From assembly GCA_032358255.1 (NCBI GenBank), contig JAULBX010027385.1, forward strand, positions 124,001-188,000: a DNA stretch of 64,000 nt, given 5' to 3'. The notes beneath the pieces are model-generated. The model saw nothing but the letters and a program-made list of their open reading frames with translations, did no database searches and was not told where the DNA came from. Below, in pieces: positions 11,222 through 64,000 of the stretch; within the stretch, counting starts at the first letter, position 1, and each line of letters opens with the position of its first letter. Origin of the DNA: Heterotrichella gracilis (taxonomy: Eukaryota > Sar > Xanthophyceae > Tribonematales > Xanthonemataceae). Both the position numbers and the translations under genes were made by a program.

Positions 11222-13991
11222 ATGGATTTTGAGGCTCCTCTTTCGCTGACTGGGCGCCAACCGTGCAGGCTGCACACTGGCACCGCCATGCAGAATCCCT
11301 TCGCTGGCCGGGGCCTGTTCAGCAAGTCCCAGGACAACCCCAAAGACCCTAAGCCCAAAGAGGCCAAGCCCAAGGGCAGCATCTTCAGCAGGCTCAAGAA
11401 GTCAGCCCTCGCCGCCAACCCCAACCTGCAAGACTGGTGGAAGCGCCTGGTGAACAGCCGCAAGGTGTACACAGGCACGTCGGACTACCGACCCGTGGTG
11501 TCCCCGGCTGAGCGCTATGTGATGGTGGGGGAGAGCCTTGGGGCGGGGGCCCACGGGGAGGTGTTTGCGGCCCTGGACAGCCTGGAGAACAACAGGCCGG
11601 TCTGCATGGAGCTGATCACGCTGGACAAGGTCAACAAATATGTCTACTCGGAGGTAATCAACCACAGGTAGGGTGGGCACTCAGCCTTGCACCGCTGCAC
11701 CTCTTCGCACCTATGGTCCTTGTGCAAAGAGGTGGTGATTATAAGCAATCACCGCCCCCATTGCGGCAATTGTCTCAAGGCACCACCAAGTGCCCAGTGG
11801 TTATTCCCCACCTCGCCCTGCTATTGCATTGCATCTGGCCGCGAGCGCTTTCAACCCCCCCTGCTCACCCTGTGCCACCGGCGCAGGCTGTGCTACAACC
11901 ACCCTCACATCGTTCAGTTCAAGGAGGTGTTCCAGCTGGGTGAGTACATGGTGCTGGTGATGGAGCTGGCAGGGGAGTGCACGCTGCAGCAGCACATGCA
12001 GCAGGTGAGCGGCAGGCCTTGTGAACCCTAAACCCTAAACTCTAAACCATGAACCCTAAACGGGTGTAACCCTTATGAGGCTCCATACAACCCCAGGGTT
12101 TGGCCTGCATGTATGGCCAGGGTGGGTGGGCCAAAGAGTGGGTGGGCCAAACCCCCAAAAACAAAAGTGAGCGCGCCAAGGGGTTGGTGGCTGTGGAGGC
12201 CTGCCTGCACTGGAGCAGGCCAGTGGCACACCACCAGGCACTGGCACGTTGCGGGCACTCTCGGCACAGGAGGAAATTCACATTGAGCAAGGATAGACTT
12301 CCACTCGCTGGCATGCTCCCTACTTCCACAGGCTCATCTTGCTATGTAATCCTGCTCATTTGCCCAATCTCTCTCTCTTCCCTCTAGCTAGCTTGCTGAC
12401 CTTGCCTTTCCACAGGCTGGCCGGCTGAGTGAGGCCGAGGCTCGCTGGCTGTTCCAGCAGCTTGTCCTGGCCGTGGACTACCTGCACCAGCGCAGGATCG
12501 TGTGCCGCGACATCAAGGCGGAGAACGTGGTCATCAGCACCAAGCAGCACAAGCGGCCCATGCTGCTGCTGCGCGAGTTTGGCGCCAGCAAGGCGGCCAG
12601 CGACGCGGAGGTGGGTGGCTTAGGGTTTAGGGTTTAGGGTTTAGGGTTTGGCGCCAGCAAGGCGGCCAGTGATGCTGAGGTGGGTGACGCCCGGCATGCG
12701 CCCAGATGAGCGCTGCTGAGCATGTGTTTGACAGGACACTAGAGAAATGGAGTTGAGGTTGCTGAGGATCAGCTGGTGCGGAGGAAAAGCTAACCGAGTA
12801 TCAGTCACGGTGGGGTGTCTTGATAAATTTTGGCGTGGGCTGATTTTGTCATGCATGCTGCCCGGGAATGACCTTGGCGTGGTGTTAGGCAGTGCGCAGT
12901 GTGTGACTGTGCTCTAAGCAACCAGTCCTGTTAACTGTACCAAAACATGCATGGACAAATAAACAGCGCACCACAGCGCACCCATGTGCTCAGCCTCACC
13001 TCCCTGTGCCCTCCCCCCACTCAGGCTGAGCTGATTGTGCAGTCCCTGGTGGGCACAAATTCTAAACACTAGACTATGAACCCTAAAACCCTTAAACCTC
13101 ACCCTCCCTGTTCCCTCACCGCCTGCAGGCTGAGCTGATGGTGCAGTCCCTGGTAGGCACCGGCCCCTACGTGTCCCCCGATGTGCTCATGGGGCAGCAG
13201 GGGTATGACGGCAAGGCGGCCGACATGTGGGCCTGCGGCATCCTGCTGTACCACATGCTCACAGGTGCGGGGCGGTAGCGGGGCACCTGTGTGTTGATGG
13301 AATACACAAGCGGATTAAGTTCAGTAGAATGCATGTTCCGTGGCCTGCTTTCATACCGTCGTTCCTGTCCATTCCTCCCCCTGACCCCCTACGCCTGTGC
13401 CCCGCAGGTGGCTTCCCCTTTGTCCAGCCCGAGGCGCGCATGCTGGACCGCCAGGTGTTGAAGCGCATGATGGTAGGGGAGTTCACCATGCCACGTGGCG
13501 TCTCGCCAGCCTGCGCCGACATGCTCAGGGGCCTGCTCACGCCGCATGGCGACCGGCGCTTGACTGCTGGCCAGGCCATGCGGCACGCCTGGACAGAGAT
13601 GCCTAACAGGTGAGGGAATGGTGGGATATATTCTTGTCTAAAAAGTCGAATCTCAAATCTATTTTAGCAAACCAGTGTGGAAAAAGTGTTGTGCACGTGT
13701 TATTGGCCAGCCTCTAAAGGTTGGCCTTCTCTCACTCTGTCTTTTCCTCGCCCAATCCCCCATACATAGGATGAGGAGTGTAGTTTATTCAACCTCATTG
13801 GTTTTCCTGGCAGGGCGCTGGACTACAACGGCCTGTTGATGAATGCGCCCATCAGGACCAAGCAGACCGACCAGGATATCAACCGCGTGTTCTGCAAGGC
13901 ACTGGGTCTGGGCAAGGGGACAGTGCCGTTTGAGGAGGGTGGTGTGGGGGCACATGGGGCTGTGCAGGCGCGCGCTGGCTTGGTGAGGTAG
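11222..13991 (+). CDS. SnRK2-like Ser/Thr kinase homologue with altered catalytic residues (probable pseudokinase)
   Basis: Six exons: 11222-11667, 11887-12004, 12416-12610, 13129-13264, 13408-13609, 13814-13991; 424 residues, TAG stop. The domain order matches SnRK2/CAMK kinases: LGAGAHGEVF (Gly loop), NHRLCYNHPHIVQFKEVF, RRIVCRDIKAENVV (catalytic loop), LVGTGPYVSPDVL (P+1), YDGKAADMWACGILLYHML. Key changes: the beta3 VAVK motif reads VCMEL (Lys to Glu), HRD reads CRD, DFG reads EFG, and APE reads SPD. The catalytic-loop Asp and Asn are kept. Loss of the ATP-positioning Lys and the Mg-binding Asp suggests weak or no phosphotransfer, hence a scaffold or regulator. The first ~80 residues are basic and Pro/Lys-rich; ATG 11288 is an alternative start. 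Degraded copies of exon 3's end and exon 4's start lie in the intervening intron. Confidence 0.85.
12024..12061. repeat. Telomere-type (CCCTAAA)n tract in kinase intron 2
   Basis: About five degenerate CCCTAAA units begin 19 bases after the donor of kinase exon 2. The tract is not at a chromosome end, since genes continue on both sides. Confidence 0.85.
12571..13160 (+). repeat. Exon-edge copies around kinase intron 3, with telomere-type tracts
   Basis: The last ~34 bases of exon 3 plus its donor (12577-12617) recur at 12646-12687 after a (TTTAGGG)n tract at 12619-12650. Within the copied codons S-D-A-E the three differences are all synonymous (AGC GAC GCG against AGT GAT GCT). The first ~32 bases of exon 4 (13129-) occur at 13025-13056 with an AG before them, followed by CCCTAAA-like sequence at 13080-13100. 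The real junction joins 12610 to 13129 in phase 0. Confidence 0.85.
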
Positions 13992-19091: not shown

Positions 19092-19227
19092 CTTGGCATG
19101 GCGCGGCAAAATTTGTTGTCTTGGTCTCAGATACGCAGAGGGGATTAATACCCATCCTGATATATATGGGTTTATTGCCATCAGACGGTTGAACATCCAC
19201 AATGATGTCAAATGAGTATGGTTATTC

Positions 19228-19247
19228 ACCCTAAACCCTAAACCCTA
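19228..19247. repeat. Short telomere-type tract
   Basis: Two to three CCCTAAA units lie in the spacer between nicotinamidase and the exonuclease, at the left edge of a CpG-rich stretch (about 19250-19740) that is probably the exonuclease promoter. Confidence 0.7.
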
Positions 19248-19676
19248 CATTCACCTTACCCGTGTGCACACTGGCGTTTTGTACTGGTAATTAATTGTCC
19301 ATTGGCGGCCAACCCTCCGAAAGGAGTACTACCGTCTGTCGTCGAGGCTGCCCGGCAAGAGTCTTGTATTGTGCTTGGACTTCGTAAAATTGTTTGGTAC
19401 GCACCATTGACGGCACCGGTGAGCGCATGCATGTTGTCTGGTTTGATCAAACACGGTGGTTAGTGAAGCGGTAAGAGGCAAACATGGCCGTTTTAACGTT
19501 AGCAGTTTAGATTATATAGGCTTGAGTGCACAATTTGAGTCTCGCCCAGTGGCAGCGCGGCCTGTGTGGCGGGTGCGTTCATTAGTTCTCGACGTTGCAA
19601 CTGGAGAGTCCAGCTTGAACCGCCAGCAGCGTGGTCTCGCCAATAACGTGCATCTACCTCTAAACTTTCACCGAAG

Positions 19677-22155: not shown

Positions 22156-23099
22156 TAACTACTAATCATTTTGATGCTGTCACACTGACACTGGTCAAAT
22201 CAGATCCCCCCACCGCTAGACGAACATTCGTTGTCAGATACACTCGTGTTAATAGGCCTCAAAATGGCAAGTCTTTTGTTTCGGCAACCTAGAGTTGCAG
22301 AAAGCTTGTGTGGTTCCCGATGGCCCACAGCCAGGCTGCCAGTTGTGCCAGTGGTGCACCATGTACCACCGCCCCGTACCACCATGTCTCAATCCCGCTG
22401 AACAATGTGCCCTACTGCAACGTGGAGCAATGTATACACGTAACGGTTATCCAATTATCAGATGGTGGCATGCCATGATCATCAGGATGTCCTGATGATC
22501 TTGGCATAGAAACAAATAAAGGGAGCGCACAAGGCACGGTTTGACATACTTATTTGTTTAGAAGTATAATATGTATAGAATATTTTCATGAATTGACTGA
22601 GTCGTCGTTGTACCTGAAAAAATTGATGGAAGCACTGCTGTTTAATACACGTTTCCTATACGAGACCCTTGGTTAGGCCATGATAAACATTTGCCAGTGC
22701 GCTAGTAGTCCGGACATCCTCATGCCACAGCGACACAGGCTTGCTGCCCCAAGGTCGCCACCAGTGGCACTTTTTGCATGGCATCATGACAATGCATTGC
22801 AAGCCAATTGTACAGATTCGTGGTGCCCACAATCCTAGTCCCTGTCGCCCACCACCCTATTTGCCCTCCCACCAGACCCACGCTCCCCAACCTAAGAAGC
22901 ATCCACCCTCAAGTCACACGGATACTCAAAAGTTTCAACACCCACCATCCCCCTCCCCTCCCCATTTTAGGAACCCCAACCAAGGGGTAGAAGAGATATC
23001 CACCGTTCGATCATGTACCCCTTGCCTATACATCCCAACTGCTCCAGCGCGTATCCGTGGTCATGCGCCTCAATGGAACCCATTCCCCACCCCCAGTAC
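22156..23099. other. Convergent intergenic region
   Basis: Between the exonuclease (+) and gyrase B (-). It holds a short perfect palindrome around 22478-22501 (GATCATCAGGA and its complement) and a C-rich block near 22860-22990. No gene is supportable; the ORF 22741-23358 is a Pro/Ser-rich frame antisense to gyrase and spacer. Confidence 0.4.
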
Positions 23100-29801
<6,702 letters not shown>

Positions 29802-30343: not shown

Positions 30344-32344
30344 ATGGCCGCCAGGAACGTGGTGTGGGATGAGCACAACCTGGCTGAGAACGAGCGAATA
30401 AAAGCTGAACTGAACCCAACCAAGATCAACGAGCCAAAGACACCTTACCACTCTCCTTTGGACACGGACGATGACCCAGATGCTGGTAAGGCTTGGGCGT
30501 AATGGTGTCTAGATTTGACAGTCAAGTAACCCTAATGCACATGCACATGCATGCCACATCGCCATGCATGTTTCAGAACCCAGAACGCAGCCCCCATGCA
30601 CGCAGCTCGCAGTCTATATCTTTCTGGACACCTATTTTGGTGTCTGCCTTGTCACCCACTTTGCATCAGCCTACTACCTAACACCACCTGACTAGCTAAG
30701 CGCCGCACCTACCCCCCCCCCCACACACACACTCTCCCTGCAACTGCAGAGTCAGCCCCCAGAACCACGCCATTTTCTGTAAGCTGGGACGCCACAGGCA
30801 GTGGGCCACACTCCCCAGCAGCAAGGTATGCACCCCACACTATCCTGTTCCAGGAAACGGTACAAGTACTCTAAGGGTCCCATAGGGTCTCCGTGGTGCA
30901 GTGGTGCAACGCTTGCTTTTCAACCTCCCGTGACATGTGCACCAACGAGTGTTTGCAAGCTGCCAGTGCGCCGTGTGGCTGCAACTGCGCCAACCTCCCT
31001 GTTAGCAGGTGTAACACCTAAAGTCCCGAACCCTAAACCGTTTACTCTAAACCCTATCCTCTAACCCTACACTACGACCCTGTCACAGTGTAGGAGTCCT
31101 CTCTAAAACCTACACCCTAAATCCTACATCATGCACCCTAAACCCTACACTCGCCCCTGCAGCAGCGGCCAGCATTCCGACAGGGATGGCGGCAGCGGTG
31201 CCAGCCAGGGCAGCAGCCCCAAGGGGAAGTACAGTACCTGGAGCAGTGAGGAGGACGAGGGGGTGCATGCGGAGAAGAGGAGGAGGTTCCAGCAGCAGCG
31301 CCAGCAGCACTACAACATGCGCCAGGCGATGAAAAAGTGCGCGCTGTGGACCTGCTAGGGGCTTAGGGTTTGGGGTTTGGACCCGCAACTGGCCAATGCC
31401 ATCATTTGGCACCTGCTGCACAGTGTATCACAGCAGGCTGCGTGTTTTATCAGTAGTATATTATTTGGTTGTGCAGCATGAGCTGGTGAATAAATGGGCT
31501 GCCTGCTGGTACACGCATGCAAGGCTGCAGGGCCCTCGCTCTCTACAGGCTGGTTGAACGCACTGCAAGCAGATGTATCAGGTGCCCTAGTTGGATGTCG
31601 GATTCATGCATGTGTCATCCATGAATGGTGGTGTGCGCGGCAAGCACGGGCTGGACACGGCTAATCAGTGAAGAGGTACCGTGTTCAGGCTCAGGGTGTA
31701 GGGTGCGCGGCACCCATGGGCTGAACAGGGCTATTGCGGTGCACGTGCACTTTGCGATACCCTAAACCCTAAACAACCTGTGTTGCTGTGTAGGGCACGG
31801 GAGATGCTGGAGGGTGGCGAGGACAATGCTGATGACGAGAGGAGCGACACCGAGCCCGGGAGCAGCCCAGCGGGAGCTAGCCATGATGCAGCAGATGCAA
31901 GTGCAGGTGAGCAACAAAGGCTTCACAGGATGTTGTTGTTTAAAGTCTAAGGTTTAGGGTTTAGCCCAGTGGGAGCGAGCCATGATGCAGCAGATGCGGG
32001 TGAGGGGTGTGGCCACCAGGCGTCCCAGTTAGCCGGTGTTGCCTTGCATTCACTTTGAAATGTTGATGCTGCGGATGGTCTGCATCCCCTGTACGTAACC
32101 CCATTGTATTGCCGTCAAAAGGGTTTATTACGCAAATCACGGCCGCGTATAATAACTATGTCTCCCTGCAGATGGGCCTGGGGAGTGCAGCTCTGACAGT
32201 CCTGAGAAGCGACAGCGCATGCTGGGGGCGGCCGCGGAGGGGGGGGTGGATGCGGCAGGAGGGGGACGAGGCTTGGGTGGGGCTGGATTGGGCGGGAGAC
32301 ATGGGGATTGGGCGGGGGCGGGGGCAAGTGGAGATGGTAGCTAG
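30344..32344 (+). CDS. Protein phosphatase inhibitor 2 (PP1 regulatory subunit 2)
   Basis: Regulator of type-1 protein phosphatase. Five exons: 30344-30485, 30750-30825, 31163-31336, 31794-31906, 32172-32344; 225 residues, TAG stop. Signatures are VVWDEHNLAENE near the N-terminus, then KINEPKTPYHSPLDTDDDPD, the conserved TPYH block of the family. A Ser/Asp/Glu-rich middle follows, then the RRRFQQQRQQHYNMRQAMKK segment that matches the family's (F)xxxRKxHYN motif bearing the HYN PP1-active-site-contact region. The tail is acidic, then Gly/Ala-rich. The protein is expected to be intrinsically disordered. The intron between exons 2 and 3 and the one before exon 4 are full of CCCTAAA-like sequence. 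A degraded copy of the end of exon 4 lies just downstream. Confidence 0.9.
31019..31155. repeat. Degenerate telomere-type tract before inhibitor-2 exon 3
   Basis: About fifteen imperfect CCCTAAA/CCCTACA units run up to the acceptor at 31162. The tract provides the pyrimidine-rich context of this 3' splice site. Confidence 0.85.
31862..32000 (+). repeat. Copy of the end of inhibitor-2 exon 4
   Basis: The exon end (31865-31906, AGCCCAGCGGGAGC... to the donor) is repeated at about 31963-32005 after GGTTTAGGGTTTAG (31945-31962). The copy keeps a GGTGAGG-like donor. Confidence 0.85.
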
Positions 32345-40100: not shown

Positions 40101-43100
40101 GAATTGTTGCTGCATGAAACCCTGACCCTCCCCCCCACTCCCCCGCCAGACCTACACCTCCATCCGCAAGTTCCGCGACGACCTCACCACCTACCCACCC
40201 GACTTCTTCGTGTGCGTCCCCCTGGTGCTCGACACCCTGCACCACAAGGTCATGCAGCGGCTGCGCGATGCATCCAAACTGCGCACGGCCCTGGCTTTGG
40301 GGCTGCTGGCGGCGAGTGTGGCGTACGTGCGGGCGCGGCGGGTAGTGGCGGGGGTGGCGCTGGAGGTGGCGCAGAGGGGGCGGTCCCTGCCGGAGCTGGT
40401 GGCGGCGGGGGTGACTGCGGCGCTGCTGGCGCCGCTGCACAGGTGCGCATGTGTGTGTGCATGTGTGTCGAAAGTACATATTACGCTGAGTTCAAGAGCA
40501 CCGCCTGGTGAGCACTGTCTTAGGGTTTAGGGTTTATTGTTGGGTCCATGGGCACGACCAGAGCCATGAAGGTGGCCACAAAGGTGTCCAAGGGCAGGCT
40601 TAGGGCTTAGGGTTTAGGGTGGGCGGTGGTGAAGCCTACTTCTATCTGTGTGCGTTTGCGTAGCCAACACTGTTGAGCACTGGGCGCGCTGCGCCTGCCT
40701 CGATATTGCTGCGCTTGAATGTTTGGCCAGTCTTGTATACCAATGCTGTACACCAATGCTCAAGGTGGAGCTTGGTATACAAGACTGGCCATACATTCAA
40801 GCGCAGCGATATCGAGGCAAACGCAGCGCGCCCGGTGCCCGGTGCCAGTTGGCTACAGCTAGGGTCTGCGGTACCTGGGTGAGTGACTAGGTTGTCAACA
40901 GCACCTGGCAGCCTGGGAGGACGGTTGGGACGGGTATTTGGCATACGTATCGCGAATCTGCGCATGGGTATTTATTTACATTTGACTGAAATGGATGAGC
41001 TTTGGCTGGTGAATGCACCATCGGATTGGTTTTCCACTGGAAGGAACAGGCGTGGTTGCCGCCTAGAGTTGAACCCCGTGAGCTGTCAGATGTATATCAT
41101 GTAGCTAAAGTGTACCACCAGTTGGCTAGGTGTTTAACCCCTGTTCAAACCCTACGGTGTTGTGACTCTTGTCTAAACCAATGCTAAACCCTACCGCACA
41201 ATCTTTTTGCAGGCTGGCCAGACCCTGGTTCACCGGAAGATCCAAGCGGAAAACCTGTTCTACACCCCGCTTAAACCCTAAGCAACCCCTACGCAAACCC
41301 TTGCAGACTGGCCCAGATCCTGGTCCACAGCAAGATCCGAGCGCAAACCCTGTGATTAACCCTTGTTTAAACCCTTTGTTAAACCCTCTTGCAAAAAACC
41401 CTTGCAGGCTGGCCCAGATCCTGGTCCACAGCAAGATCCGCGCAGCCCTGGGGGTGCGGGGGGCGGTGGTGAGCGGCGGGGGGTCCCTGGCGCAGCACCT
41501 GGACGACTTCTACGAGGCGGTGGGGGTGCCGGTGGTGAACGGGTGGGGCCTGACCGAGACGTCGCCTGTGCTTGCGTGCCGGAGGCTGGCGGAGGGGGGG
41601 AACGTGCGCGGGAGCATAGGTGAGGGGGCGTGGGGTGGGTGTGGGGTGGGTGGAGGGGGGTTGGATATAGGGGAATAGGGTCCCCAACCACAAGCATGGT
41701 ACGAAGAGTAATAAGATATCAATAGGACTACCATTATCTAAATATCACTATTCTATTGGTATCTTATTACCCTTGTTGTTACTATCAATTGCAGTTCTGT
41801 TAATTAATCTCAAGGCAAGCTGTGTGAGTATCAGTGACCTGAAGTGTGCAAGGCTTGCAATGCCATTCATCGCGGGCCTAGGAGGATTTTCGTTAGAAAT
41901 ACCGACATGCATCCAAGCGCACAATTGCATATTCTCATGCATGTTCCCCTGTCCCACCGCCACAGGCCTGCCCATCCCCGGGACCCAGATTCGTGTGGTG
42001 GATCCCGACACCCGGCGCCCCATCCCCGACGGCCAGCAGGGCTTGCTGCTGGCGCGTGGCCCGGGTGTGATGCAGGGCTACCTGGATGATGAGGGGGCGA
42101 CCGCAAAGGCCTTCATTGCTGGTGGGTGCACATGCAGCGCCATTGCATTTTTGTTGCAGTTCTCATTGTTTGTTTGTCTAGCTTGTTTTTTATATCATTT
42201 CACATGGATAAAGATATGTGATGAGGTTATTGTCAAGGATTTTTTAGTTAAATAATTGCCGGCGCTCAAAATACTGGTTTTTGTGAATAGGATTTAACAT
42301 TTGGGTTCCTTGCTTGCAGGTGACGGCTGGTTTGACACCGGCGACCTTGGGTGGCGCGTGCCTGAGGGCATTCCGGGCTCCAACATGGCAGGACACCTGG
42401 TGCTCACAGGTAAGAGGAGCATATCACACATCCCATCCCATCCCAGGCGGCCTAGATTAGCAAAGGCTTGACCGTGCATCATTCCCCACGGCGCCGCAAA
42501 TTGGCTAACAGCGCTCTTGTCACTGTTGCCAAATTGCTAATATCCACATGAGAATACAGTGAGTATTTGCGTACTTTTCCCCTACTTTTGTTGTTTTGGA
42601 ATTTTTTTGAATTTGAAATTGTTTTCTCCCTCCAGGCCGCGCCAAGGACACCATTGTTCTGACCAGCGGCAAGAACGTCGAGCCCCAGCCCATTGAGGAC
42701 GCCATTTGCGTGTCCCGCTACATCAAGCACTGCGTGCTGGTGGGGCACGGCCACAGGGCGCTGGGGGCGCTGGTCACGCTTGAGGAGGAGGCGGTCAAGG
42801 AGCTGGCGGAGCAGCAGGGTAAGGGTTTTGGGGTCAACCCTAGTTAGGGTTTGGGGCTAGGGTTTGGAGGGTATGGGTGTGGGGGCGCTGGTCACGCTGG
42901 AGGAGGAGGCGGTCAAGGAGCTGGCGGAGCAGCAGGGTAAGGGTTTTGGCAGCATGGTAAGGGTATCTGGTTAGGGTTTGTAGGGTTATTGGGCGCGTGT
43001 CGCACTGGAAGAGGAGGTGGTCACCGGAGCGAGGAGCTGGCGGAGCAGCAGGGTAAGGGTTTTGGCGGCATGGGGAGAGTAGCTGATTAAGGTTTGTAGG

Positions 43101-43760
43101 CTTTTGGGCACTGGTCACGCTGGTGGAGGAGTGGCAGAGCAGTGGGGTATGGCGTGGGTAGGTTTGGAGAGTATTTACATCTGTACAAAATAAGTTGTCT
43201 ATACATATTACCATTTAACTTACATATTAAGGCAGCATAGGAAGTTGTATACTAGATCATTACCCGCTGCACCCCCTAGCTGGCCCCATCCACCCAGCCG
43301 CCATCCACACCCCCTGCAGGCAAGCAGGCGCTCTCCCCCGAGGAGGTCCGGTCGCTGGTACAGGAGCAGATCCGCGCGGCCATGCGCGAGCGATCCGCTC
43401 ATGAGTTCAAGGACCAGATTGCAGCGTTTGCGGTGCTCGACTGCCAGCTCAGCGTCGAGGACGGGACCCTGACCCGCACCATGAAGCCGAGGCGCCCGGC
43501 CATCATGGAGAAGTTTGCCAAGCAGGTAGGGGAAAGTATTTTTGTCGACAGCAGGTTGTCAATGCATTTCTCTTTGCTAAGCCCTTAGGGTACGCACATC
43601 ATGAGCACAGCAGGATGGGTAGGTGTTTGCAAGCCCTTGCTCGAAGAAGTGCTACTTTGTACCGTATTTGCAAGATATGGAATCTATCAATCTCTGTTAA
43701 TTATTGATTATTTTATTATTTGCCATGCAGGTGGCGGAGGTGGAGTCGCACCTGCGCTGA
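37134..43760 (+). CDS. Long-chain acyl-[acyl-carrier-protein] synthetase, AAE15/16-type, plastid-predicted
   Basis: ATP-dependent ligase that activates free fatty acids to acyl-ACP (or acyl-CoA). The plant AAE15/16 clade acts in plastids, recycling fatty acids. Fourteen exons (37134-37310, 37393-37487, 38130-38213, 38394-38541, 38780-38926, 39187-39432, 39901-40059, 40150-40442, 41408-41619, 41966-42121, 42320-42409, 42636-42818, 43320-43525, 43731-43760) sum to 742 codons with TGA. Exon 1 is rich in Arg/Thr/Gln and lacks acids, like a transit peptide. Signatures: LVYTSGTTGHPKG (AMP/P-loop), LLPPWHIYERAVSYHVLS, VVSGGGSLAQHLDDFYEAVG, VVNGWGLTETSPVLACRR, DGWFDTGDLGW, LTGRAKDTIVLTSGKNVEPQ, and near the end LTRTMKPRRPAI, matching the adenylate-forming C-terminal lysine region. 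Introns 6, 8 and 12 contain repeated exon edges. Confidence 0.95.
39790..39925 (+). repeat. Copy of the start of acyl-ACP synthetase exon 7 with telomere-type spacer
   Basis: The real exon 7 begins at 39901 after CACCTGCAG. The same AG plus GTGTCACGCTCAGCCACTCC-like sequence is present at 39840-39866, preceded by CCCTAAACCCTAATG (39797-39830). CCTAAGGGCGGAACCCTAATG lies between the two copies. Confidence 0.9.
40519..40622. repeat. Two TTTAGGG tracts in acyl-ACP synthetase intron 8
   Basis: GGGTTTAGGGTTTA at about 40521-40535 and TTAGGGCTTAGGGTTTAGGG at about 40601-40620, both downstream of the exon 8 donor. Confidence 0.8.
40682..40833. repeat. Long near-perfect inverted repeat (hairpin) in acyl-ACP synthetase intron 8
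   Basis: Arms 40682-40743 and 40772-40833 are each 62 bases and reverse-complementary apart from four positions, with a 28-base loop. Arm length is almost the same as in the FAS1 intron hairpin (7203-7361), but the sequence is unrelated. It could be a microRNA-type precursor or a foldback/MITE-like element. Confidence 0.88.
41208..41445 (+). repeat. Three successive copies of the exon 9 acceptor region
   Basis: TTGCAG followed by CTGGCC(C)AGATCCTGG-type sequence occurs at about 41210-41250, 41301-41346 and 41402-41440. Only the third runs on into exon 9 (start 41408). Degraded CTTAAACCCTAAGC and GTTTAAACCC units separate them. Confidence 0.92.
41708..41770. repeat. Short AT-rich inverted repeat
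   Basis: GTAATAAGATATCAATAG at 41708-41725 pairs with 41753-41770 with one mismatch. It lies in the intron after acyl-ACP synthetase exon 9. Possibly a tiny foldback element or a chance AT-rich stem. Confidence 0.6.
42765..43155 (+). repeat. Four tandem copies of the end of acyl-ACP synthetase exon 12
   Basis: The exon end encoding LGALVTLEEEAVKELAEQQ plus its donor GGTAAGGGTTTTGG (42765-42830) is repeated at about 42882-42951, 43003-43068 and 43104-43150, with a period of about 118 bases. The copies decay progressively: copy 2 is nearly identical, copies 3 and 4 carry indels. TTAGGGTTTGGGG and TTAGGGTTTGTAGGG units fill the gaps. The real exon ends at 42818. Confidence 0.93.
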
Positions 43761-47743: not shown

Positions 47744-50700
47744 ATGTCTACCGGAGCACTCGATCTGCTTGGGTGCCTCCCAGGGCCCGCAAGCAAGAGC
47801 AACAATGGAGCTTGCGACCTGTTGTCAAGCGAGCTGTTTGCCTATGCTGCAAGCACTGCAGTGGTGGTGGTTGACGTGAGTACTCAACCCGCAAGTACCA
47901 CTCACCGCCGACGTTTGCTACAACTGAAAGGTAGCCCAAGGAACCGGGGCAGCGCACAGTGTTTGGCTCACCTTGCCACTGTGTGGGTTGCAGGTCAAGA
48001 CCATGCAGATCGCGTGCACTCTGCAAGACAGCCAGAGGAAGGGAGGCATAATAAAAGCTGTCAAGTGGTAATGACACTAGTTTGGTTATTGGCTCCATCC
48101 CTTTTAACCATAGGTTCCTCTGCCAGTAGTTCCTTGCTATGTGCACAAGCTGTCACAAATACAGCTACTTGTGTTGGTTCAGGTGTCCAGACTATTCCCT
48201 CAGAGATGTGAAGCACTCCGGTGTCCTACGGTGAGCGTTTGGTACCGGTTTTATCTTGACATCGACCCACTGCATGAACCACAAAAGACCCAATGGCATG
48301 CTCACACCTCCAGCCACAATTGGCGCAGGCTAGCAGCAGGGGACAGCGAGGGCCGGGTGCTGCTGTGGGATGTGCGCAGCGCGGTGTACTTTGCGATGCT
48401 GGAGGGGCCCTACAAGGGCAACAAGCAGGACGCGCCGCAGTCTGGGGCTGTGCAGGACCTTGCGTGGGTGATGGCGCCCCCCTCGCTGCTGGCGGTGGTG
48501 TTTGCCAATGGGCTGCTGGTCCTGTGGGACACAAAAGGTGGGTGGGTGAGTGGGTGGGTGCCGGTCTGCTTTCCATTCTTGCAGAGTGGGTGCACACGCT
48601 GTTCAGGTTTAGGGTTTAGGGTTTAGAGCTGTTGGTGCTGTGGGACACAAAAGGTGCGTGGGTGCCAGCCCTGCATCATTACATTCAAGAAGGGATGGGT
48701 GCACACACTGTACAGGTTAAGTGTTTAGGTCTTAAGGTGGTAGCCAGGGTAGAGTGCTGTGGGACATAAAGGTGGTGGGTGGGTGGGTGCCAGCTATACC
48801 ATGGCCCTCATTGTGGGGACTTGTTTTCCCCTGTCAGGATGGTCAGTTGGGACATACGAGAAATTCTCGTGCATGCTAAGCTAAAGTTGCAGCAGACAGT
48901 AATAAGCAAATCTGTTGTAAGAGGCGAAATGAGTTACAATTTTTAAATATGAGGAATTCCTAAAAATATTCTCTTTGGTTAATCTCGCGGTAAAATAATG
49001 TAACAGAACCTTTTTTTGTGGCGCAGAGGGCACTGTGGTGTGGCGCAAGGAGTACGCCCAGGAGAACGTGCCCCGCACCCTGCGTGTCAACCCCTGGGAC
49101 CGCCGCCTGCTGTGCATGTGCAGCAACAGGGGCAGCCTCACGGTGCTGCAGTTCATCAACCCGCAGCAGGACAAGGTGAAGCAGCAGACCTTCCAGGTGG
49201 ATGTGTCCAAGGAGGGGGACAAGGCGGTGCTGCGCGCCTACTTCCCAAAGACCAGCGACCTCATGTATGTGCTGCTGTCGCGAGAGGTGAGTGGGCGAAA
49301 CCCTAAACCCTAAATCATAAAACCATAGGAAGCGCTGGGTGAGTGGGTGCTTGTGACCCATTCATCTAGTGGTGCAGCATCCAAGAAGGAATATATTGTT
49401 CAATTGGCGTGGGGTCGATTCAACTCATAGTCAAATTGTGCATTATCTAGTAATGCTAATTTTACGCAATCTAACCGTGTTTTGACTGCTAATCATCCAA
49501 TGGTGATCTGCCCATGCAGGTGATAGTGTTTGACCTGGAGTTCATGCAGCCGGCCGCAGCCACCACGCTCCCAAACAGCAAGCCTGCCTTTGACGACATC
49601 CTGGGCGCATACGGCCCCCTGTCATCCTCCAACCCATCCTACGCAGCAGGCATCGAGCTGATGTGCTGCTCCCACAGGGACGGCCACATCAGCCTGTGGA
49701 GACGCCAGCCGCAGCAGATCTCATACACCCTGCTCAGCATGCACCGGTTGCTGGCCCCTCAGATGCAGTCGAATGTGGCGTCTGGGTGCACGCTGCTGGC
49801 CATGAAAGGGGTGTTGAACCAGCGGCTGCCGGTGCCACCTGCCCAAGCCCCTGCCGAGCCCGTGCGGTACGAGGCGCCACTGATCGACTTTGGCATGGAT
49901 GACGGTGCTGTGGATGAGGCAGAGGCCAATGGCAGTGACCCTGTGGGGCATGGGGTGGAGGCGCAGGAGGTACCGAGTGCAGAGCAGCAGTCGCTCATGG
50001 TCATGATTGTGACTGGGGAGGGGCAGACCTGGCAGTGGGAGGTGCCCCTGCCGTCGTTCGAGGCGGTTGCTGAGGCAGGCGCTGCGGTTGCAACGACAAC
50101 CCCTTCGCTACAAGGTGAGCATATGGGACCAGATTTGGATTATAGCAGCATGATTGTAAGGACTATTGATCTGCGTACTCGCCAATTCATGCGTGGGTCC
50201 TGGTGATCAGCCAACCCGGACAGCAAGTACCCATTGCTTATAAAATCGAACATCTTTTTCCAAACGGATTAAAATCGAATAAAAAAGAATGCACCTGATT
50301 AATTGTCAAACTGTGATAGTCTAACGCCTCTTGCCCGCGCGCCCAACCTGCATCGCTCCCCTGGCGCAGGTGTCCTCCACTCCCTGGCCAGCAACATCAT
50401 CTCCTTCTCAGTGTGCCCCTGGCCAATGTACGCGGGCCAGGACAAATCAGACCCCGACCTACTGTCCAGGGCCCACCGGGGAGGGGCAGGAGGGGTGGGT
50501 GCAGGAGGGGTGGGTGCGCAGGTGGACCAGGAGTTTAGCGCCTCTGCAGTGCTGCTGGCTGCGGTTACTGGCAATGGGCAGCTGCATGTGGTGACTGTGC
50601 AGCGGGGCACCTGGACGCCGCTGGCCGCCACGCTGACCATCACGCTAGGTGCGCTCGCGTTTGCGTCTGGGTTGACACCAGTGCTTCACTGGAACCCACA

Positions 50701-53700
50701 TGCGTCATCACATCACTGGAACCACTCTGCGCCATTCTTCAGGGCGCAAAAAACGGTGACGTCGGTGCTTCACTTGAACCACATGCATCATCACATCACT
50801 TGAAGCATTCTACATCATTCAATTCTTCCACCACTTTGCTCTTCCACCACCAGCACAGTATTGCACGCCACATTCTGCCACGTTTCAAGAACTTCCCAAA
50901 TGGTTCTTGGGGATAACCATTTTTCAGTGCGCAATCGGTGCAAATGCCCCATGTGAACCAGCCTCGGTGTTCATCACTTAGCTGGAACAGAAACAACCTG
51001 GTGCAGTTAGCGCAGTAACCTGAAAAGCCAAGCAAGCTCATATGCGCGCCACCACATGATAAACCCCCTTCAACCCTCCACCGCAGATGTGCACAAGGAC
51101 TCAGCGCGCGGCGTGCGGTGGCTGGGCAGCACCCCCCGCATCGTCACCTACAGCAGCCGCAAGGCCAGCTCGGGCACAGGCTACAACAACGCGGTGGCCA
51201 TCACCGACCTGCGTGACCGCAGCACTGTCAGCATACGCGATGTGGCGGTGGACCAGGCGCCCCTGGTGGCAGTGCGCGCCTCCCCCAGTGGGGCTTACCT
51301 GCTGCTGCTCATGCGGGGGCAGCCGGCGGAGGTGTGGCTGGTGAGTGGTGGGTGTGGGGTGTTGGGTGGAGTGGTGGGTGTGGGTGGTGGAGTCGGGGGT
51401 GTCGGGGGTGGAGGGGGTCCATGATGTGGGGGGGTAGACAACTCATAGGTGGAAAAGGGGAATGGTGGTTTCGTGGGATAGTGGAGGTGGGTTGAAAGAA
51501 GCAACTGCACAACCACCGCCAACAGCATACTCCATGCTCGAGCTACATGCGTTGCTGATCGCTCATGCTACACCTGTCATGCATGGCCCCGCATGTGGCG
51601 CCCAAGTGGCAAGGACGGTGAAATATTGGTTCTTGGGGATTTGCTGAAGAGCCCTGACTCTGTTTTGCAGGTGAGCGAGAACGTTGATCCCACTCGGCTG
51701 CGCACGCTTGACCTCCCCTTCACCGCGGTTGAGTGGATGACACCTGGCGACATGTGCATGCACACAATGGCAGCCATGGAGCCGCACAGGTGGCACGCGG
51801 CAGGGGGCCCAGGGGATCAACCCAAAACCACAGGGTGAGGAACTGCCTTTTTTCTCTATTGAATCGGACGTTGCCATGTCAAATCAATCGCACATTGCAG
51901 CGCCGCGTCAGTCAATATGGACATTGCAGGATTCTGTGCTGTATCAATTGCACATCAATGGTTGAATGGGGCATGTACGTTGCTAAAACAACGTCCCGCA
52001 ATGTTGAATCACTACCCACCTCCGCAGAGCCGCCCCCAGCCCGCCACCCGCGCCCAGCCCCAGACCGAGCAGCAGCGGCGACAATGGCGGCGGCAGCGGC
52101 AGCCTATCCCCACAGCCCAGCACCACCGACGGCCCCTCTCCCACCCCCAACCCCTCCCCACTCCCGGAGGAGAAGCTTGGCTTTGCGCTGGGGGATGGGC
52201 GCCTTGGGGTGATCAACATCCGGGGCCACAGGGCCTCCAACGCCAACGTGCGCAAGCCCATGTGGGGGCTGCTGGCGGGTGCCGAGGTGGGTACCAGGCT
52301 GCGGGACACCGTTCTTGCTTTACCCTAAACCCTAAACCACAGGCATCGGGGTGAAGGGCTCAGGTTTTAGGGGCTCGTTACAGGCGTCGAGGTGCGCAAA
52401 ACGGCTGTAGGCAGAGCGACATGCAGTATATGCAGCTGGTCATGTGGCGTTTAGCTGCAGCATTATATCAGAAGTGATATAAATCAGTGGACTGCCCTGC
52501 TTATTTTGCTTCTGCGTCGCTCTGAGGGACTTGGCCCTTGTGCTGGAATGCATGGAAAACCAATCCACCCTAACACCCCATATAATGACAGTTTTTTTAT
52601 TTGTAGGTACCTGGTGATATGTTTGTTCACTTTTATTGCTTGTCCCCCTTTCAGGTGGTTGCCACTGCTGTGACCGGGTGGGGCAACCTGGTGGTGCTGG
52701 GTGACGCTGAGGGCCACCTGATGAATTGGGACACCACCAGCGGCAAGATTGTGGCGCTTGCAACGGGGGGGCAGGGGCCCATCGTGCGCATCTACTGCTC
52801 ACCGCCGGGCTGCCCAAGGCTGTCCAACTCCATAGCAATTGGTGCGCAGGGTTCAGGATTAAGGGCTTGAGCCAGGGCTTGGGCGGTGAATGTGTTGTTT
52901 AGTATTTTGGCATTGACTTTGGAGTGCCTATTAGTCGTTATTGTACAGTATTCTGTTGTGCCCTCTCACATGCACAACCGACGTCCAGGTGCGCGTGGCG
53001 GTCCAGTGGCCCCCCTAGATCCTAGACTCTAAACCCTGAACTCATGTCTGTGGTGATTGTTCCAGGCGACGTCCAGGCGCGCGTGGCGGTACTGTTTGCC
53101 AACGGCGCCTTTGGAGTGTGGGAGCTTGATTCCCGCAACGAGCTGCAGCCCGGCCTAGCCAGCGTGTCTGCCTGCGCCCGCTACGGCCCCGTGACTGACC
53201 TGGAGTGGCTGCCGCTGCCGCACCCGGTGGGGGGTGGATCGGTGCTGGCTGCCACGCTGGCGGATGGCAACCTCATACTGCTGGACATGTGTCAGGTGGG
53301 GATGGCGCTTGGGATGGGAACATGATGGGGATTGGGGTTGGGGACACGTGTTTGGTGGGGAATGGTGCTGCCACGCTGGCGGATGGCAACCTCATACTGC
53401 TGGACACGTGCCAGGTGAGGGTGGGGAGTGGTGCTGGGGATGGGCCATGGTGGTGATTGAGGTTGTGGACACGTGTTGGGTGGGGAGAGGTGCTGCGGGC
53501 GGGCAGGTTTGGAGGCGCAACGCTATCCTGCCTGATTTGCACGCACAGGTGTGTTCTCCCCTCACAGCTCGGAGGGTGAAACGAGCCTACCTTCATGCCC
53601 GAACCATGATCCCAGACCCTTTCGCTCCAACCTAGGATGGCTCCCAAACCCTGATCCAAGGTGTTTTTCCCTCCTTTTTTCCTTCTTCTTTTGATTGCGG

Positions 53701-56700
53701 TGCCAAAGGTGTATGTTGCCCGCAGGTGGTGGAGGGCGGCCCCCGATGGAAGCGGCTACAGGCATACCAGGGGGTGCTTGGAGGGGCATGGCCATTTTCG
53801 CGGGGGTCGCTGGCTGCCCCCCCGCCCCTGGCCTCGCCACTCACCTTCCCACAGGCATGGCTGCAGTTCCTGAGGCTGGTGCTGCAAAGGGGGCTGCTGG
53901 TGGAGCGATTGCAGGTAAACCCTAGCCTGGCCCCAGCGGCAACTGGTTAACCATAGCATGGCCCCAGGTTACGCCCTAGGTGTTAAAATCCTAGCCAGTA
54001 CCCGTGCGGTTTGCATGAATGGCTGTGCCCTTTATGAAGGCCAGCTTTACGTCACAATTCATACCTATTTTATATTTATTTTTTATCCACATGTCCTGGT
54101 GGCTCTCATGCTGCTGCTGTGCCTGCATACACCAGCAAGCAGTTCTACGCTGACACCTGGTAATGTTCAGGCGCTCATCAGCGCCGACGACTCTAAACCC
54201 TAATCATTGAACCCTACACCCTGTGCAGGCCCTCATCAGCGCCGACGACCCCTCCGACCTGCTTGACGCAGACGCGCTGCTGTGGGAGCACTTCCCCCGG
54301 CAGGTGCCTCAGGCATGGGACAAGAGCCTGCGGCACAGGAGCACCTCGGAGATGCCTGACGGTGCGGCTGCTCCCGTACATGATTGGTGGCACGGTTTCA
54401 GCCCAGATTAGCAGTCATTCTTGCATGCGCAACCCCAGTTCTGGCTTACCAGCCCTCCTGGGTATTTGTTTAAAAATTCTGATTTCAGAAAGCCCAAGGA
54501 CTGTGCTGCACACTTGCTTTTTTCCAAAGAGACAACCCTGGAGACAACCCCAAACCTACCACCCACAAACGCCTGACCTACCACCTCTGTATTGTGCAGG
54601 CAAGTTTGCCGACATGCTTGGAGACTTTGCTGACATTGCCGAGGAGGACAGTGGGGGGGAGAGTGGGGTGCAGGAGGCAGCAACCACCACCCCCGCCGCC
54701 TCCACCGCCCACCCAACAATCCCCACCCAGCCCCTGGTGGCACCCGCCACCACCACCAGCACCACCAGCACCAGCGGCAGGGGTGGGGCAGCCAGTGGGG
54801 GCCGGGCAGGTCAACGGGTGGAGGGGTCCAGGTGGGCATCATATGGATGCAAGGGTTTGCCTGTGGTTTGTGGATGGCCCAAAGGCTTCATGCTGCCATG
54901 TGCACCAGCTGAAGGGTTGACTTGTGTGCGTTGCTTGTCATCCCATGTGTTACCTTCCTTGTTAGGTCAGGGTCAGGCGCCGCGTGTGCAAGACTGACTG
55001 TTGACTTTTATGTATTGCTATGCATTTAACTACCTCACTAGCTAACTAGGTCAGCGTCTACTGGCTCTCCACCAAGGGTTGAACTCCCTGTCAGGCAAGA
55101 GGTAACCTAACGTGCTGTGCTGTGATTTGCAGCAACTCCTTCTCCACCAAGGCCGTCAAGGCGCTAGGCTCCCAGCTGAGCCGCATGGTGCAGCTGGGGG
55201 GGCAGGGGCAGGGCCAGGGGCAGGGGGAGGCAAGGGGGCAGAGGGAGCCATTGGCGGCAGCCATGCAGCCCACAGACCACGGTGAGGGTTCGGAGGGTTC
55301 AGGATGGAGGGTTTAGTATTTAGTGGCCATGGCAGGCCATCAGTCCCCAGCACTTGATTGCCTTTCAGTCAATGTGGGCGGGCATTGAACATGCCATCAC
55401 TCATGTGCTGCGCTTTTCTGTTCTTGACAGGTTCCCTAAACCCTATTGTAACCCCCCAGAAACCTTTAAATCCCTGCGGGGGCAATTCTGATCCCTGTCA
55501 ACATGCGCAGGCATGCCTGACCCCCAGCAGCGGTCCCGCTTCACCACCCCAGTGGCGGTGCTGCGCATCATGGCGTGGAGGCGGGGTGGCGGCCAGCTGC
55601 TGACGCCTGACGAGTGGCGGGTGTACGAGGCGGCGGCGGGTGCAGGGGACATCACGTGCCTCATGGCGCTTGCGGCGGGGGTGACCAGGAGCCAGGTGGG
55701 TGGGGGTTCAAGGGGGGGGTGGTGTTCATGGAAAAAATGAGTAATTGGAGGGATGCAAGTACATTTGAAGAAAGGAGTGGGGAATTTACGACGCAAGGTG
55801 TACCAGTGGTTTGCGTGGGTGATGCAACATCAATTGGTTCTGAGTATTGCATGGTGGCAGGGGGCATATGAGGATGCATCTGAGCGTTCAAGCAAGGCCT
55901 GACCTGTGTGCCGGCACGACACAAGGTGCAGACAATTGACCATGGCATGATACTTGGGGGTGCAGGATGAGATGCAGTTCTGGCAGCGGCTCCCGCAGTC
56001 CCTGGCTGCCGTCAAGCGCATGCACACAGCCTGGGAGGCAAGCCGCGCACCGCAGCCCGATGCCCCGCCTGGCACCCCTCCCGCCCAACCCCCCCTGTCT
56101 GTGCGCAAGGGGTGCGAGCTATGGGATGATGCAGCGCTGGTGGCTGAGTCCAGCGAGCGCGTGCAGTGGCATGAACACATCTCGCGCCGCAACCTGGAGC
56201 ACTCGCAGGAGCTGCAGGTGGGGGTGAAAATGTTGTACATTGTATAAGAACATCCTGTAGTAATATAAAAGTATTGATAATTATATTGTTGTATCGACAC
56301 ATTGTAATATAGTTTGTGGGGGGAGCAACCTGGAGCACTCGCAGGAGCTGCAGGTGGGGTAAATGTGTATTCTTATGGGGGGCAACAACCAAGGGTAATA
56401 AGATACTTAAAAGTAGTCTCATATGGTCAATAAGAGAAGAAAAATCGATGTTAGGAAAAGTCATATACGGTAATACGGTAATGAAAACAGTTGTTAATGG
56501 ATGCTGCCACTGGATGGCACGCCTGTTACGTTTTCGCTGCCCCACACTTCTGCAGGAGAAGCGCATGATCGAGTACGTCATCCTGGGCGACTACCAGACT
56601 GCGGTAGGCTTCCTGCTAGCCTCCACCCCAGACGCAAGCGCGCGCTACTACCGAGACGCACTATGCACCCTGGCGCTGGCTGCAGCACACAGCACCGGGG

Positions 56701-62265: not shown

Positions 62266-64000
62266 CTAGTACATTGCCGCCGCGTGCATGCTGCCCCCCA
62301 CCGAGTTGTGCAGTATGCTGGAATCGAAATCCAGCGCCGCCAGCACCCACAGGCACTGGAGTTGATCGTAGCGCAGGCGGCTCAGGGTCAGGGGCCTGCA
62401 GAGCAGTGTGAATTGTGGTAAGGTAAAATTTCAACACCGAAATCATACCAACAGAATATTCATAAAAACTGGTGACCACTGATGTATACATGGCACAGGC
62501 ACGTCTGGGGATGTATGCGATCAATTGGAAACATACATGGCGATAAAACTTATCGCAAAAAGCAGTGAAGCAAATGTCAGGCCAAAATTATATTTGGATT
62601 ATTAGAATGACGAATCAGTTATGATCATTGTACAAGCCACATTATCTTTTCTCTGTCCCAGCGGAGATTATGCTTTCAAGGCAATCCACCCAAGCCCTCC
62701 TCCCTGGGCCCCACCACCACTGCCCGCGTGTCCCACCTCCCCCTCTTCATGTCAATATCCTCCTCCCCATGCGCGTCCAGGTAGGGCGAGGGGCGGAAGG
62801 ACACCCGCCCGCATGACAGCAGCACCAGCCGCGTGTCGCGCACTAGCAGGAAGGGGGCGGTGCCTGCAAGGGGGTGGAGATGGGGGTCGAGGTTAATGGG
62901 TTGGGGTGCGCAGGCGAAGGAGTGGGACATGCAGTGCCCTGGTGCTGATGCCACGTGCTGGAACCCACTTGCAGATGCACGGGGCAGGTGGCCAAGGCAA
63001 GGTATAGTGCTGCAGCGGCGGCAGGGAATGCAAAGCCCTCTCGTGGAGTGGGGTACCCAGTGCACTCAGTCACCAAGCATTTTTTTTTGAAGGTGTCCAT
63101 GTCACAAGCATCTCACATACAGGCCTGGTCTAGGCTCCCTCATCCGCAGCCTATCCTCTCCCTGCCACGCGCCAGAGCTCAGCGCATGCCCGTAGCACTG
63201 CCCAGTGCCTAAACCCTACACCCTACCTGCGCCGCATCTCAACGCGCGCCCGTAGCACTGCCCCGTGCCTAAACCCTGCTCAAAACCCTACATCCAACAC
63301 CCAAAACCCTACCTGCGCCGCATCTCATCGCGTGCCCATAGCACTGCCCCGTGCTGCCCTCGGCCTTGCAGCGCAAGTCCCCACAGCACAGCAGCGTGCC
63401 GCACAGCAGGCACAGCGCGGGGTTGACGGGGGAGCGCCCGCACGCCGCGCACCCCTGCTGCATCATGCTCAGGTAGAAGTCCTGCGGGTAGGGTTTAGGG
63501 TTTAAAGTCGAGGGTTTTCGGATTGCGGTATAGGGTAAGGGTTGAGGGGCGCACACCGCACAGCCCTGCTACATCATGCTCAGGTTGAAGTCCTGCGGGT
63601 AGGGTTTAGGGTTTAGGTCCAGGTGAATTTGTAGGATTCCGGGTGTTGGCGCACTGTTGCCCACGGCACACCCCTGCACCATCACGCTCAGGTAGAGAGG
63701 TTCTGGGGTGGGGTCAAGGTGGGAGGGTTGTGAGCTGGGAGTAAACTGGTGCAGAGGTTTATACACAAGTGGGTGTGTGTGCATGTATTTTCTCGGCTTG
63801 TGGTTGATACTATTGGCCCTTACCTGGTACTGATCAGGCAGGCGGAGCAGTGCCGGCACGCCCAACCGGAAGCCACTTCTGATCCCCGCTTCCCGAATCG
63901 ATGTACTCCCCCCTTGGGCCCCAATCTCTTGCACCCCCTGGCCGCTGCTGGAGCCCTGTGGCCGAGACCCTAGCAAGGGTATCGAGTGGCTGCTGCACAC
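62266..64000 (-). CDS. UBR-type (UBR1/PRT6-like) E3 ubiquitin ligase, C-terminal part
   Basis: 3' end of an N-degron pathway ubiquitin ligase; the gene runs off the right edge. Four exons are visible on the minus strand: (64000)-63824, 63481-63313, 62863-62737 and 62395-62266 (TAG), about 200 residues in phase. Family signatures of the UBR C-terminal autoinhibitory (UAIN) region: LLRLPDQYQDFYLSMMQQGC, CAACGRSPVNPALCLLCGTL, a Cys-rich GDLRCKAEG...GHAMRCGAGT segment, FLLVRDTRLVLLSCGR, SPYLDAHGEEDIDMKRGRPL and LSRLRYDQLQCLW. The N-recognin UBR box and RING are outside the window. Degraded copies of two exon edges lie in the introns. Confidence 0.88.
63160..63345 (-). repeat. Serial copies of a UBR exon end with telomere-type spacers
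   Basis: The exon end around 63313-63355 (GCGCCGCATCTCATCGCGTG then CCATAGCACTGCCCCGTGC on the plus strand) recurs at about 63230-63270 and 63165-63210. CCTAAACCCTACACCCTACC and CCCTGCTCAAAACCCTAC blocks lie between the copies. In transcription order the copies follow the donor. Confidence 0.9.
63440..63710 (-). repeat. Serial copies of a UBR exon start with telomere-type spacers
   Basis: The exon start with its acceptor (about 63440-63490, coding DFYLSMMQQGCAACG) is copied at about 63546-63605 and, shorter, at about 63657-63700. (TAGGGTTTAGGGTTTA) tracts at 63488-63505 and 63600-63617 separate them. Confidence 0.92.

Follow-up and report, generated by a model that had tools for sequence, protein, structure and literature searches.

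How introns gain their length and internal structure is poorly understood, and the scars left by telomeric repair are usually thought to be scattered. Both matters are raised by a 64,000-nt stretch of DNA from the xanthophyte Heterotrichella gracilis (GenBank assembly GCA_032358255.1, contig JAULBX010027385.1, here C487; C487:124001–188000, referred to below as the window), in which short pieces of exon edge, splice site included, recur within the adjoining introns, often with telomere-like sequence between the copy and the original. Why should the edges of exons be copied into introns beside telomeric repeats? We find that these duplications are concentrated at exon–intron borders, that the repeat in the spacers is the organism's own telomere repeat and that copies may be stacked in ladders, and we suggest that they could record recurrent break repair at splice borders.

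Exon-edge copies at intron borders

The assembly consists of 68.5 Mb in 903 contigs, and from this we took a 264-kb sample of three contigs (the window, C487:1–120000 and 40 kb from both C2 and C13). We added thirty pieces of 3 kb surrounding perfect (CCCTAAA)3 matches, with 27 left after duplicates (loci L013, L024 and L030) had been removed. Gene models were produced ab initio, without RNA, by a two-strand hidden Markov model gene finder self-trained on the sample sequence. It predicted 47 genes with 325 introns (median 294 nt) in the 264 kb and a splice consensus of CAG/GTGGGT at donors and a C-rich tract followed by TGCAG/G at acceptors (slashes mark the splice boundary).

Each border, taken as up to 40 nt of exon plus 10–12 nt of intron, was searched against the 500 nt beyond it, with a score of at least 34 required. 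Copies were found at 44/324 donors and 29/322 acceptors (together 73/646, or ~11%), compared with 0/1,938 for mismatched pairs of edges and flanks from other genes; reverse-complement matches at this score also numbered zero. The copies described in the initial annotation of the window are therefore real and extend past it. It had also proposed enrichment of edges over exon interiors as a check, and this enrichment was found in the sample: control windows 41–90 nt from the exon edge had copies in 6/246 cases on the donor side and 2/250 on the acceptor side (8/496), whereas the edges of the same exons had them at 37/246 donors (P = 6e-7) and 23/250 acceptors (P = 1e-5).

Direct repeat pairs were also collected (123 found, of which 35 were removed for low complexity or length >200), and 56 of the remaining 88 joined an exon to an intron, compared with 24.6 ± 4.5 under random placement. 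None had both copies in intergenic DNA (24.5 expected), and the other classes were intron–intron (20 vs 21.2), exon–exon (11 vs 13.5) and pairs with one intergenic copy (class OE, 1 vs 1.5). We note that several of the counted window pairs stem from a long proline-rich repetitive open reading frame (window 7731–9266, minus strand) with internal repeats ~108–153 bp apart. Circularity of the gene models was considered as a source of these results and rejected, as they were kept, though in weaker form, in a rerun with a neutral model that gives introns and intergenic DNA a common composition and acceptors no C-tract preference (exon–intron pairs 48 vs 27.4, wholly intergenic pairs 0 vs 11.4, with 38 kb intergenic in this model and 94 kb in the main one).

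Within the window, 24/182 predicted intron borders have a copy at this score, all within seven predicted genes which are precisely the seven that had been named from the sequence beforehand. Five of these borders (donors 13048, 24875 and 41351, acceptors 41306 and 56344) were judged false as the gene finder had placed them inside a copy, leaving ~19; the weakest of these, donor 26269 (score 35), was counted on score alone, and the others are visible in the sequence. The events are as follows (window positions, with the strand in brackets).

11222..13990 (+) predicted protein kinase gene with one donor-edge and one acceptor-edge event (gene finder; Pfam Pkinase, E 4.5e-48)
12577..12617 (+) kinase gene, real exon end and donor (boundary 12610/12611)
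12618..12645 (+) kinase gene, telomeric insert of about four TTTAGGG units; the 40 nt past the copy are without telomere
12646..12686 (+) kinase gene, intronic copy of exon end and donor, 93% identity, with a 4-nt match between the telomere end and the bases preceding the original
12994..13056 (+) kinase gene, intronic copy of acceptor and exon start
13057..13096 (+) kinase gene, CCCTAAA-like spacer, 31/40 nt telomere-like
13097..13160 (+) kinase gene, real acceptor and exon start (boundary 13128/13129), with a kinase match in PDB
22412..29515 (-) predicted GyrB gene with four events (gene finder, homology)
23120..23169 (-) GyrB, real exon end and donor; intronic copy 23025–23075; spacer non-telomeric
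23272..23342 (-) GyrB, real acceptor and exon start; intronic copy 23358–23428; telomeric spacer
24735..24801 (-) GyrB, real acceptor and exon start of the GSAKQ..ILNV segment; ladder of intronic copies at 24861–24914 and 25083–25106
26880..26908 (-) GyrB, real acceptor and exon start; intronic copy 26969–26997; telomeric array 26916–26943 between them
31864..31906 (+) inhibitor-2 gene (Pfam IPP-2), real exon end and donor; copy 31963–31997; telomere tract 31948–31965
34475..34543 (-) membrane-protein gene, real exon end and donor; copy 34341–34409; G-oriented telomeric spacer
39833..39926 (+) acyl-ACP synthetase-like (AMP-binding) gene, copy 39833–39865, then real acceptor and exon start (boundary 39900/39901); CCCTAA spacers
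41200..41443 (+) AMP-binding gene, acceptor ladder; real edge 41396–41443, copy 41295–41342 (96%) and older copy 41200–41247 (65% identical to the middle copy and, over 38 nt, 87% to the real edge)
42762..43131 (+) donor ladder; real edge 42762–42831; copies begin at 42880, 42991/42996 and 43106, with TTTAGGG-like sequence in the spacers
48512..48791 (+) WDR11 gene, real exon end and donor (boundary 48537/48538); two copies, starting at 48628 and 48754; array of telomere repeat 48601–48628
52979..53090 (+) WDR11, copy 52979–53002 (exon start without acceptor), telomeric spacer, real exon start 53067–53090
53248..53431 (+) WDR11, real exon end and donor 53248–53312; copy 53367–53431; no telomere
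54164..54249 (+) WDR11, copy 54164–54191, telomeric spacer, real acceptor and exon start 54222–54249
56189..56359 (+) WDR11, real exon end and donor 56189–56223; identical copy 56325–56359; AT-rich non-telomeric spacer
63148..63354 (-) UBR/PRT6-type gene, donor ladder; real edge 63294–63354, copy 63208–63268 (89%), older copy 63148–63208 (66% identity with the middle copy)
63439..63723 (-) UBR/PRT6-type gene, acceptor ladder; real edge 63439–63504, copies 63550–63615 (92%) and 63658–63723 (65%); telomeric spacers

These genes are intron-rich, the GyrB gene included. The window gene models have Pfam or protein matches to Pkinase, IPP-2, PRT6_C, AMP-binding, WDR11 and HATPase_c, with GyrB and kinase segments matching PDB proteins; the membrane-protein gene has no Pfam match. 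Homology favours the exon-proximal copy as the coding copy in the GyrB, kinase, AMP-binding, IPP-2, PRT6_C and WDR11 cases. It should be noted that the gene finder sometimes takes copies as exons (kinase 13025–13048 and AMP-binding 41307–41351 on the plus strand, GyrB 24876–24916 on the minus strand), so that border assignments carry error. Automatic annotation of this genome will probably hold similar false exons made from acceptor copies.

Structure of the duplications

The border scan gave 62 matches in total, of which 17 were set aside as ambiguous because the copy lay within a predicted neighbouring exon. In 43 of the 45 clean cases left, the duplicated stretch crosses the splice border, covering a median of 42 nt of exon and 20 nt of intron at donors, and of 33 nt and 24 nt respectively at acceptors. 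Aligned copies are 24–145 nt long and spaced by a median of 118 nt at donors and 110 nt at acceptors, and 43/45 differ from the real edge (identity 78–99%). As had been described for the window, copies of exon ends follow the donor and copies of exon starts precede the acceptor, which holds but is largely forced by any local duplication spanning the border.

The repeat extends into the spacer in 14/45 cases, as in plain tandem duplication. In several others, telomeric sequence lies between the copies and is absent from the 40 nt beyond (e.g. window borders 12610, 13128, 54228 and 53065), which suggests an insert lying outside the duplicated unit. Both arrangements occur, with only the spacer telomeric in some events and the telomere belonging to the repeated unit in others.

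Nineteen borders carry at least two copies, and in these ladders the best score belongs to the nearest copy in 13, the second copy in four, with two ties (P = 0.05). This order is as expected if new copies form beside the exon and push older ones outward, and the GyrB GSAKQ..ILNV segment is read from the exon-proximal copy, both upstream copies being degraded. Introns longer than 150 nt with a donor copy have a median length of 422 nt (n = 32), compared with 288 nt for those without, or 308 nt under the same length filter. Break repair adding telomere and staged intron growth, which the initial annotation had offered as alternatives, fit together on these figures (the nearest copy is best in 13/17 untied ladders).

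Some further ladders and duplications were noted. Three identical 41–48 bp exon-edge copies with CCCTAAA spacers occur at C13:188286–188594 (L050), where a 100-N scaffold gap lies within the array; this ladder is either very recent or unresolved, and has the C orientation which is less common at donors. In two larger ladders, C487:80671–80998 (L039) and C487:111415–111756 (L042), exon edge and telomeric spacer repeat jointly in units of ~79–87 bp. A 28-bp identical direct repeat surrounds a telomeric tract at C487:108181–108275 (L041), ~107 nt from the nearest predicted splice site, and is either a rare intron-internal event or marks a missed exon. A 150-bp tandem duplication (82%) without telomere at window 59487–59789 is classed as intron–intron and starts at a predicted splice site.

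The telomeric spacers

The spacer repeat is the organism's own telomere repeat, TTTAGGG. Arrays of at least seven CCCTAAA units occur on 11 contigs only, six of them within ~200 nt of the contig start in the C orientation, as expected of true telomeres. The remaining five lie on the minus strand, which by orientation alone would fit right ends. A telomerase-like gene is predicted in the genome from two adjoining Telomerase_RBD matches above the curated cut-off on C626 (gene level only). We note that uninterrupted family-A DNA polymerase matches also occur at C442:116638–117765 and C111:216815–217945 (open frames of 943 and 948 amino acids), which are possibly bacterial contigs within the assembly, and that three further matches (C13, C575 and C739) are split over several pieces.

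An exact telomeric 7-mer is present in 30 of the 45 clean spacers, which bears out the statement that most copies in the window are separated from the exon by telomere-like sequence. Telomere tracts more generally are found in introns (116/130, with 11 intergenic and three exonic, compared with four, three and none for the reversed word) and are 16–46 nt long (10th–90th percentile). Their median distance to a splice site is 27.5 nt, as opposed to 77.5 nt for random placement. Direct repeats with a score of at least 22 flank 58/154 tracts (26 of the 154 stem from loci picked for a telomere array, with L006 also removed here) and 0.65% of shuffled flanks, and at a score of at least 30 they flank 35/114 intronic and 0/11 intergenic tracts. 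Genome-wide there are 834 perfect three-unit arrays (overlapping matches and contig ends included) compared with none for the reversed word, and 25 of the 27 three-unit loci fall in introns in the main model and 21 in the neutral one.

Junctions were examined where the copy abuts an exact telomere word with no telomere beyond, which left 11 junctions of one kind and seven of the other from 58 events. Where the 3′ end of the telomeric sequence meets the copy, it shares a mean of 2.27 nt with the sequence just ahead of the original stretch, compared with 0.94 nt in permutations (P = 0.001, n = 11).

Orientation of the repeats

One-sided telomeric spacers have their G-rich strand pointing 3′ outward from the exon in 24/27 cases (P = 5e-5). 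At acceptors 11 spacers have the C orientation only and none the G, and at donors 13 have G only, three C only and three both. In strict patterns applied genome-wide (overlapping matches counted), telomeric sequence before C-rich acceptors is C-oriented in 432 matches and G-oriented in 62, and after AAG/GTGNG donors it is G-oriented in 351 and C-oriented in 178, with only 0–3 matches in the backward-read controls. Tracts within 60 nt of predicted acceptors are similarly 29 C vs 2 G. When all intronic telomere words are considered, the G orientation lies nearer the donor in 120/143 and the C orientation nearer the acceptor in only 106/188. The density of TTTAGGG words is highest in the 40 nt next to donors, and that of CCCTAAA words 20–40 nt before acceptors.

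The composition of the splice sites shares this polarity. G-runs reach 45 per kb in the first 20 nt after donors (~20 further in and 11 in intergenic DNA), and C-runs 56 per kb directly before acceptors (~20 further in and 12 intergenic). Telomere-masked G-quadruplex (G4) motifs cover 27 bp per kb in exons and introns and 1 bp per kb between genes; a profile of these motifs by distance was dropped as it was apparently dominated by an outlier region, and the run counts are used instead.

Proposed mechanism

That one recurrent process acts at these borders, as the initial annotation had suggested, is well supported by the border specificity, the lack of any wholly intergenic pair, the polarity (which is strong at acceptors and weaker at donors), the true telomere repeat, the ladders and the longer introns. 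We propose that this process may be recurrent break repair at splice borders with telomeric addition, duplication of the border and stepwise intron growth, and put the probability of this reading at roughly 0.45. The breaks and their cause, the action of telomerase, the polymerase, the timing and the use of the exon-proximal site are what the proposal would add to the structures described above.

The strand leaving the exon 5′ to 3′ is G-rich at both edges, as the sense strand at GGTGGGT donors and as the antisense complement of the C-rich tract at acceptors. A staggered break at such G-rich sites, with nicks tens of nt apart straddling the splice site, would leave 3′ overhangs, and the exon-side 3′ end could then gain TTTAGGG units through telomerase or receive a telomere fragment. 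If a short match of a few nt let the telomeric 3′ tail pair with the opposite tip, fill-in of both ends would give border, telomere and border copy in that order, while a plain duplication would result if the telomere step were skipped. Since the splice site is itself duplicated, the one next to the exon would stay in use and the extra copy would be spliced out, leaving the protein unchanged, and repeated rounds would build ladders of ever older copies in ever longer introns.

Several observations weigh against this reading. The polarity at donors is only 2:1 genome-wide, and near predicted donors (up to 60 nt away) the tracts are evenly divided (21 G vs 22 C), although some of these donors are false and lie within acceptor copies. 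Looser patterns gave 429:301 at donors and 1134:722 at acceptors, and were replaced by the stricter ones as they cannot tell donors from acceptor copies followed by exons starting with GTG. The acceptor polarity could come from selection for the C-rich tract. Fifteen of the 45 clean spacers have no exact telomeric 7-mer, a first look found a repeat pair around the array at just 7/27 three-unit loci, and telomere purity is only weakly correlated with copy identity (rho 0.45, P = 0.036, n = 22). At the primer-side junction in-register bases were found in 0/7 cases, a measure which is biased towards zero by core cutting but lends the reading no support. Intron–intron pairs are at the random level (20 vs 21.2 in the main model, 19 vs 31.2 in the neutral one), and exon-edge pairs should be detectable for about twice as long as intron–intron or intergenic pairs, which would explain part of the border enrichment. 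The weak points of the case include the ab initio gene models, under which 17 of the 62 border matches were set aside, and the small number of junctions.

More broadly, we tentatively suggest, with less confidence than in the repair reading itself, a splice-site-targeted and telomerase-dependent mutational engine that lengthens introns stepwise across the whole nuclear genome and seeds decoy splice sites and telomeric tracts. If the sample (~11% of borders) is typical, borders on the order of ten thousand or more would be affected genome-wide. Scars that lie mainly at splice borders, duplicate the border and are stacked in apparent age order would allow the growth of an intron to be followed through successive events that can be dated. 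They would also tie splice-site composition to DNA fragility and telomere repair, and the duplicated splice sites would be a natural stock for alternative splicing.

Alternative explanations

Ordinary short tandem duplication might occur anywhere, with the border events standing out because exons diverge slowly and splicing makes the copies harmless, the telomeric sequence being captured fragments in either direction and selection on splicing leaving the C-rich orientation at acceptors. The 15 clean events without an exact telomere word, the presence of both orientations at donors (C in 178/529 of the strict genome-wide matches and the even division near predicted donors) and the expected neutrality of border-spanning duplications all agree with this, and telomere-fragment capture together with selection at acceptors is a serious rival. 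Nonetheless, we think this explanation somewhat unlikely overall, since intergenic DNA should be at least as free of selection as introns and yet none of the 88 pairs has both copies there, slower divergence should give an approximately twofold bias, and 15 of the 20 intron–intron pairs reach at one outer end to within 36 nt of a splice site. It is improbable that the CCCTAAA and TTTAGGG words are selected splicing elements (branch site and pyrimidine tract at acceptors, G-triplets at donors) which the duplications have just copied. Their enrichment in introns only, near splice sites, in a preferred orientation and with peaks at such short distances is what this would predict, but even at the peaks telomeric bases are merely 4–5% of intron bases and most introns are without them, and neither the excess of perfect three-unit arrays nor the events with telomere between the copies and none in the 40 nt beyond fits well with it.

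Intron birth by duplication of exonic AGGT segments, with the copies as remnants of the birth, is suggested by 17 of the 62 matches in which the copy lies in a neighbouring predicted exon across a short intron (53–142 nt). We regard this as very unlikely, since the copy lies within a predicted intron in the 45 clean cases; the 17 could fit but come from doubtful gene models, and for several of them the cause is a copy that the finder took as an exon. Introners are known in algae, and an insert flanked by direct repeats is the pattern that would be left by an introner or another mobile element, if its ends were telomere-like and its target-site duplications long. Such an origin is highly improbable and was rejected after an all-against-all comparison of the 325 introns of the sample with telomere words masked, in which no match (E ≤1e-6) was found between introns of different genes; no pair has both copies in intergenic DNA either. 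The least likely explanation is an assembly artefact. Arrays trouble assembly and one ladder, on C13, holds a 100-N gap, but mis-assembly does not create diverged copies with their own spacers, as seen in 43 of the 45 clean cases.

Comparison with known systems

Among the open-licence papers that our searches listed, judged by title and abstract opening, none describes telomeric inserts together with a duplicated splice border. The single ingredients all have precedents, and it is the targeting of splice borders, the high rate and the ladders that were not found described there. Intron gain by tandem duplication and introner elements involves duplication or insertion at AG/GT in genes, whereas here it is introns already present that appear to lengthen, and the 325 introns yielded no family. 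Direct repeats near intron splice sites have been interpreted as marks left by insertion and by the repair of breaks (Rogers and Bendich 2025, PMC11782384), and the present repeats likewise lie at exon–intron borders. In the parts of that account consulted the repeats are 4–30 bp (mean 11.4), with one at each intron end and no telomere mentioned, whereas here both copies lie at one border and are 24–145 nt when aligned, with a spacer between them.

Short interstitial telomeric sequences in mammals have been attributed to telomerase insertion at double-strand breaks (Nergadze et al. 2007, PMC2246262). As here, these are short arrays of the organism's own repeat in unique sequence with short homology at one junction, although in mammals the homology is on the primer side and here it was found at the other junction, with none seen on the primer side. 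Duplications accompany few of the mammalian insertions (6/130 in rodents and 4/25 in primates), most of which show deletion or unchanged flanks, and the portions of that account that we drew on make no link to splice sites; in H. gracilis, direct repeats flank over a third of the tracts (58/154), and the tracts lie near splice borders.

The Pol α-primase/CST fill-in machinery also serves telomere ends. Small tandem duplications have been described as products of CST-guided Pol α-primase fill-in at breaks with 3′ overhangs (Schimmel et al. 2021, PMC8355091), and these are of about the length of the overhang (there down to 43 bp, comparable with the 24–145 nt aligned here). The telomeric insert and the focus on splice sites distinguish the H. 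gracilis events from those duplications, as neither is described in the sections of that paper that were consulted. Telomeric insertion at breaks and CST/Pol α-primase duplication, when combined, would produce the border, telomere and border copy structure observed here.

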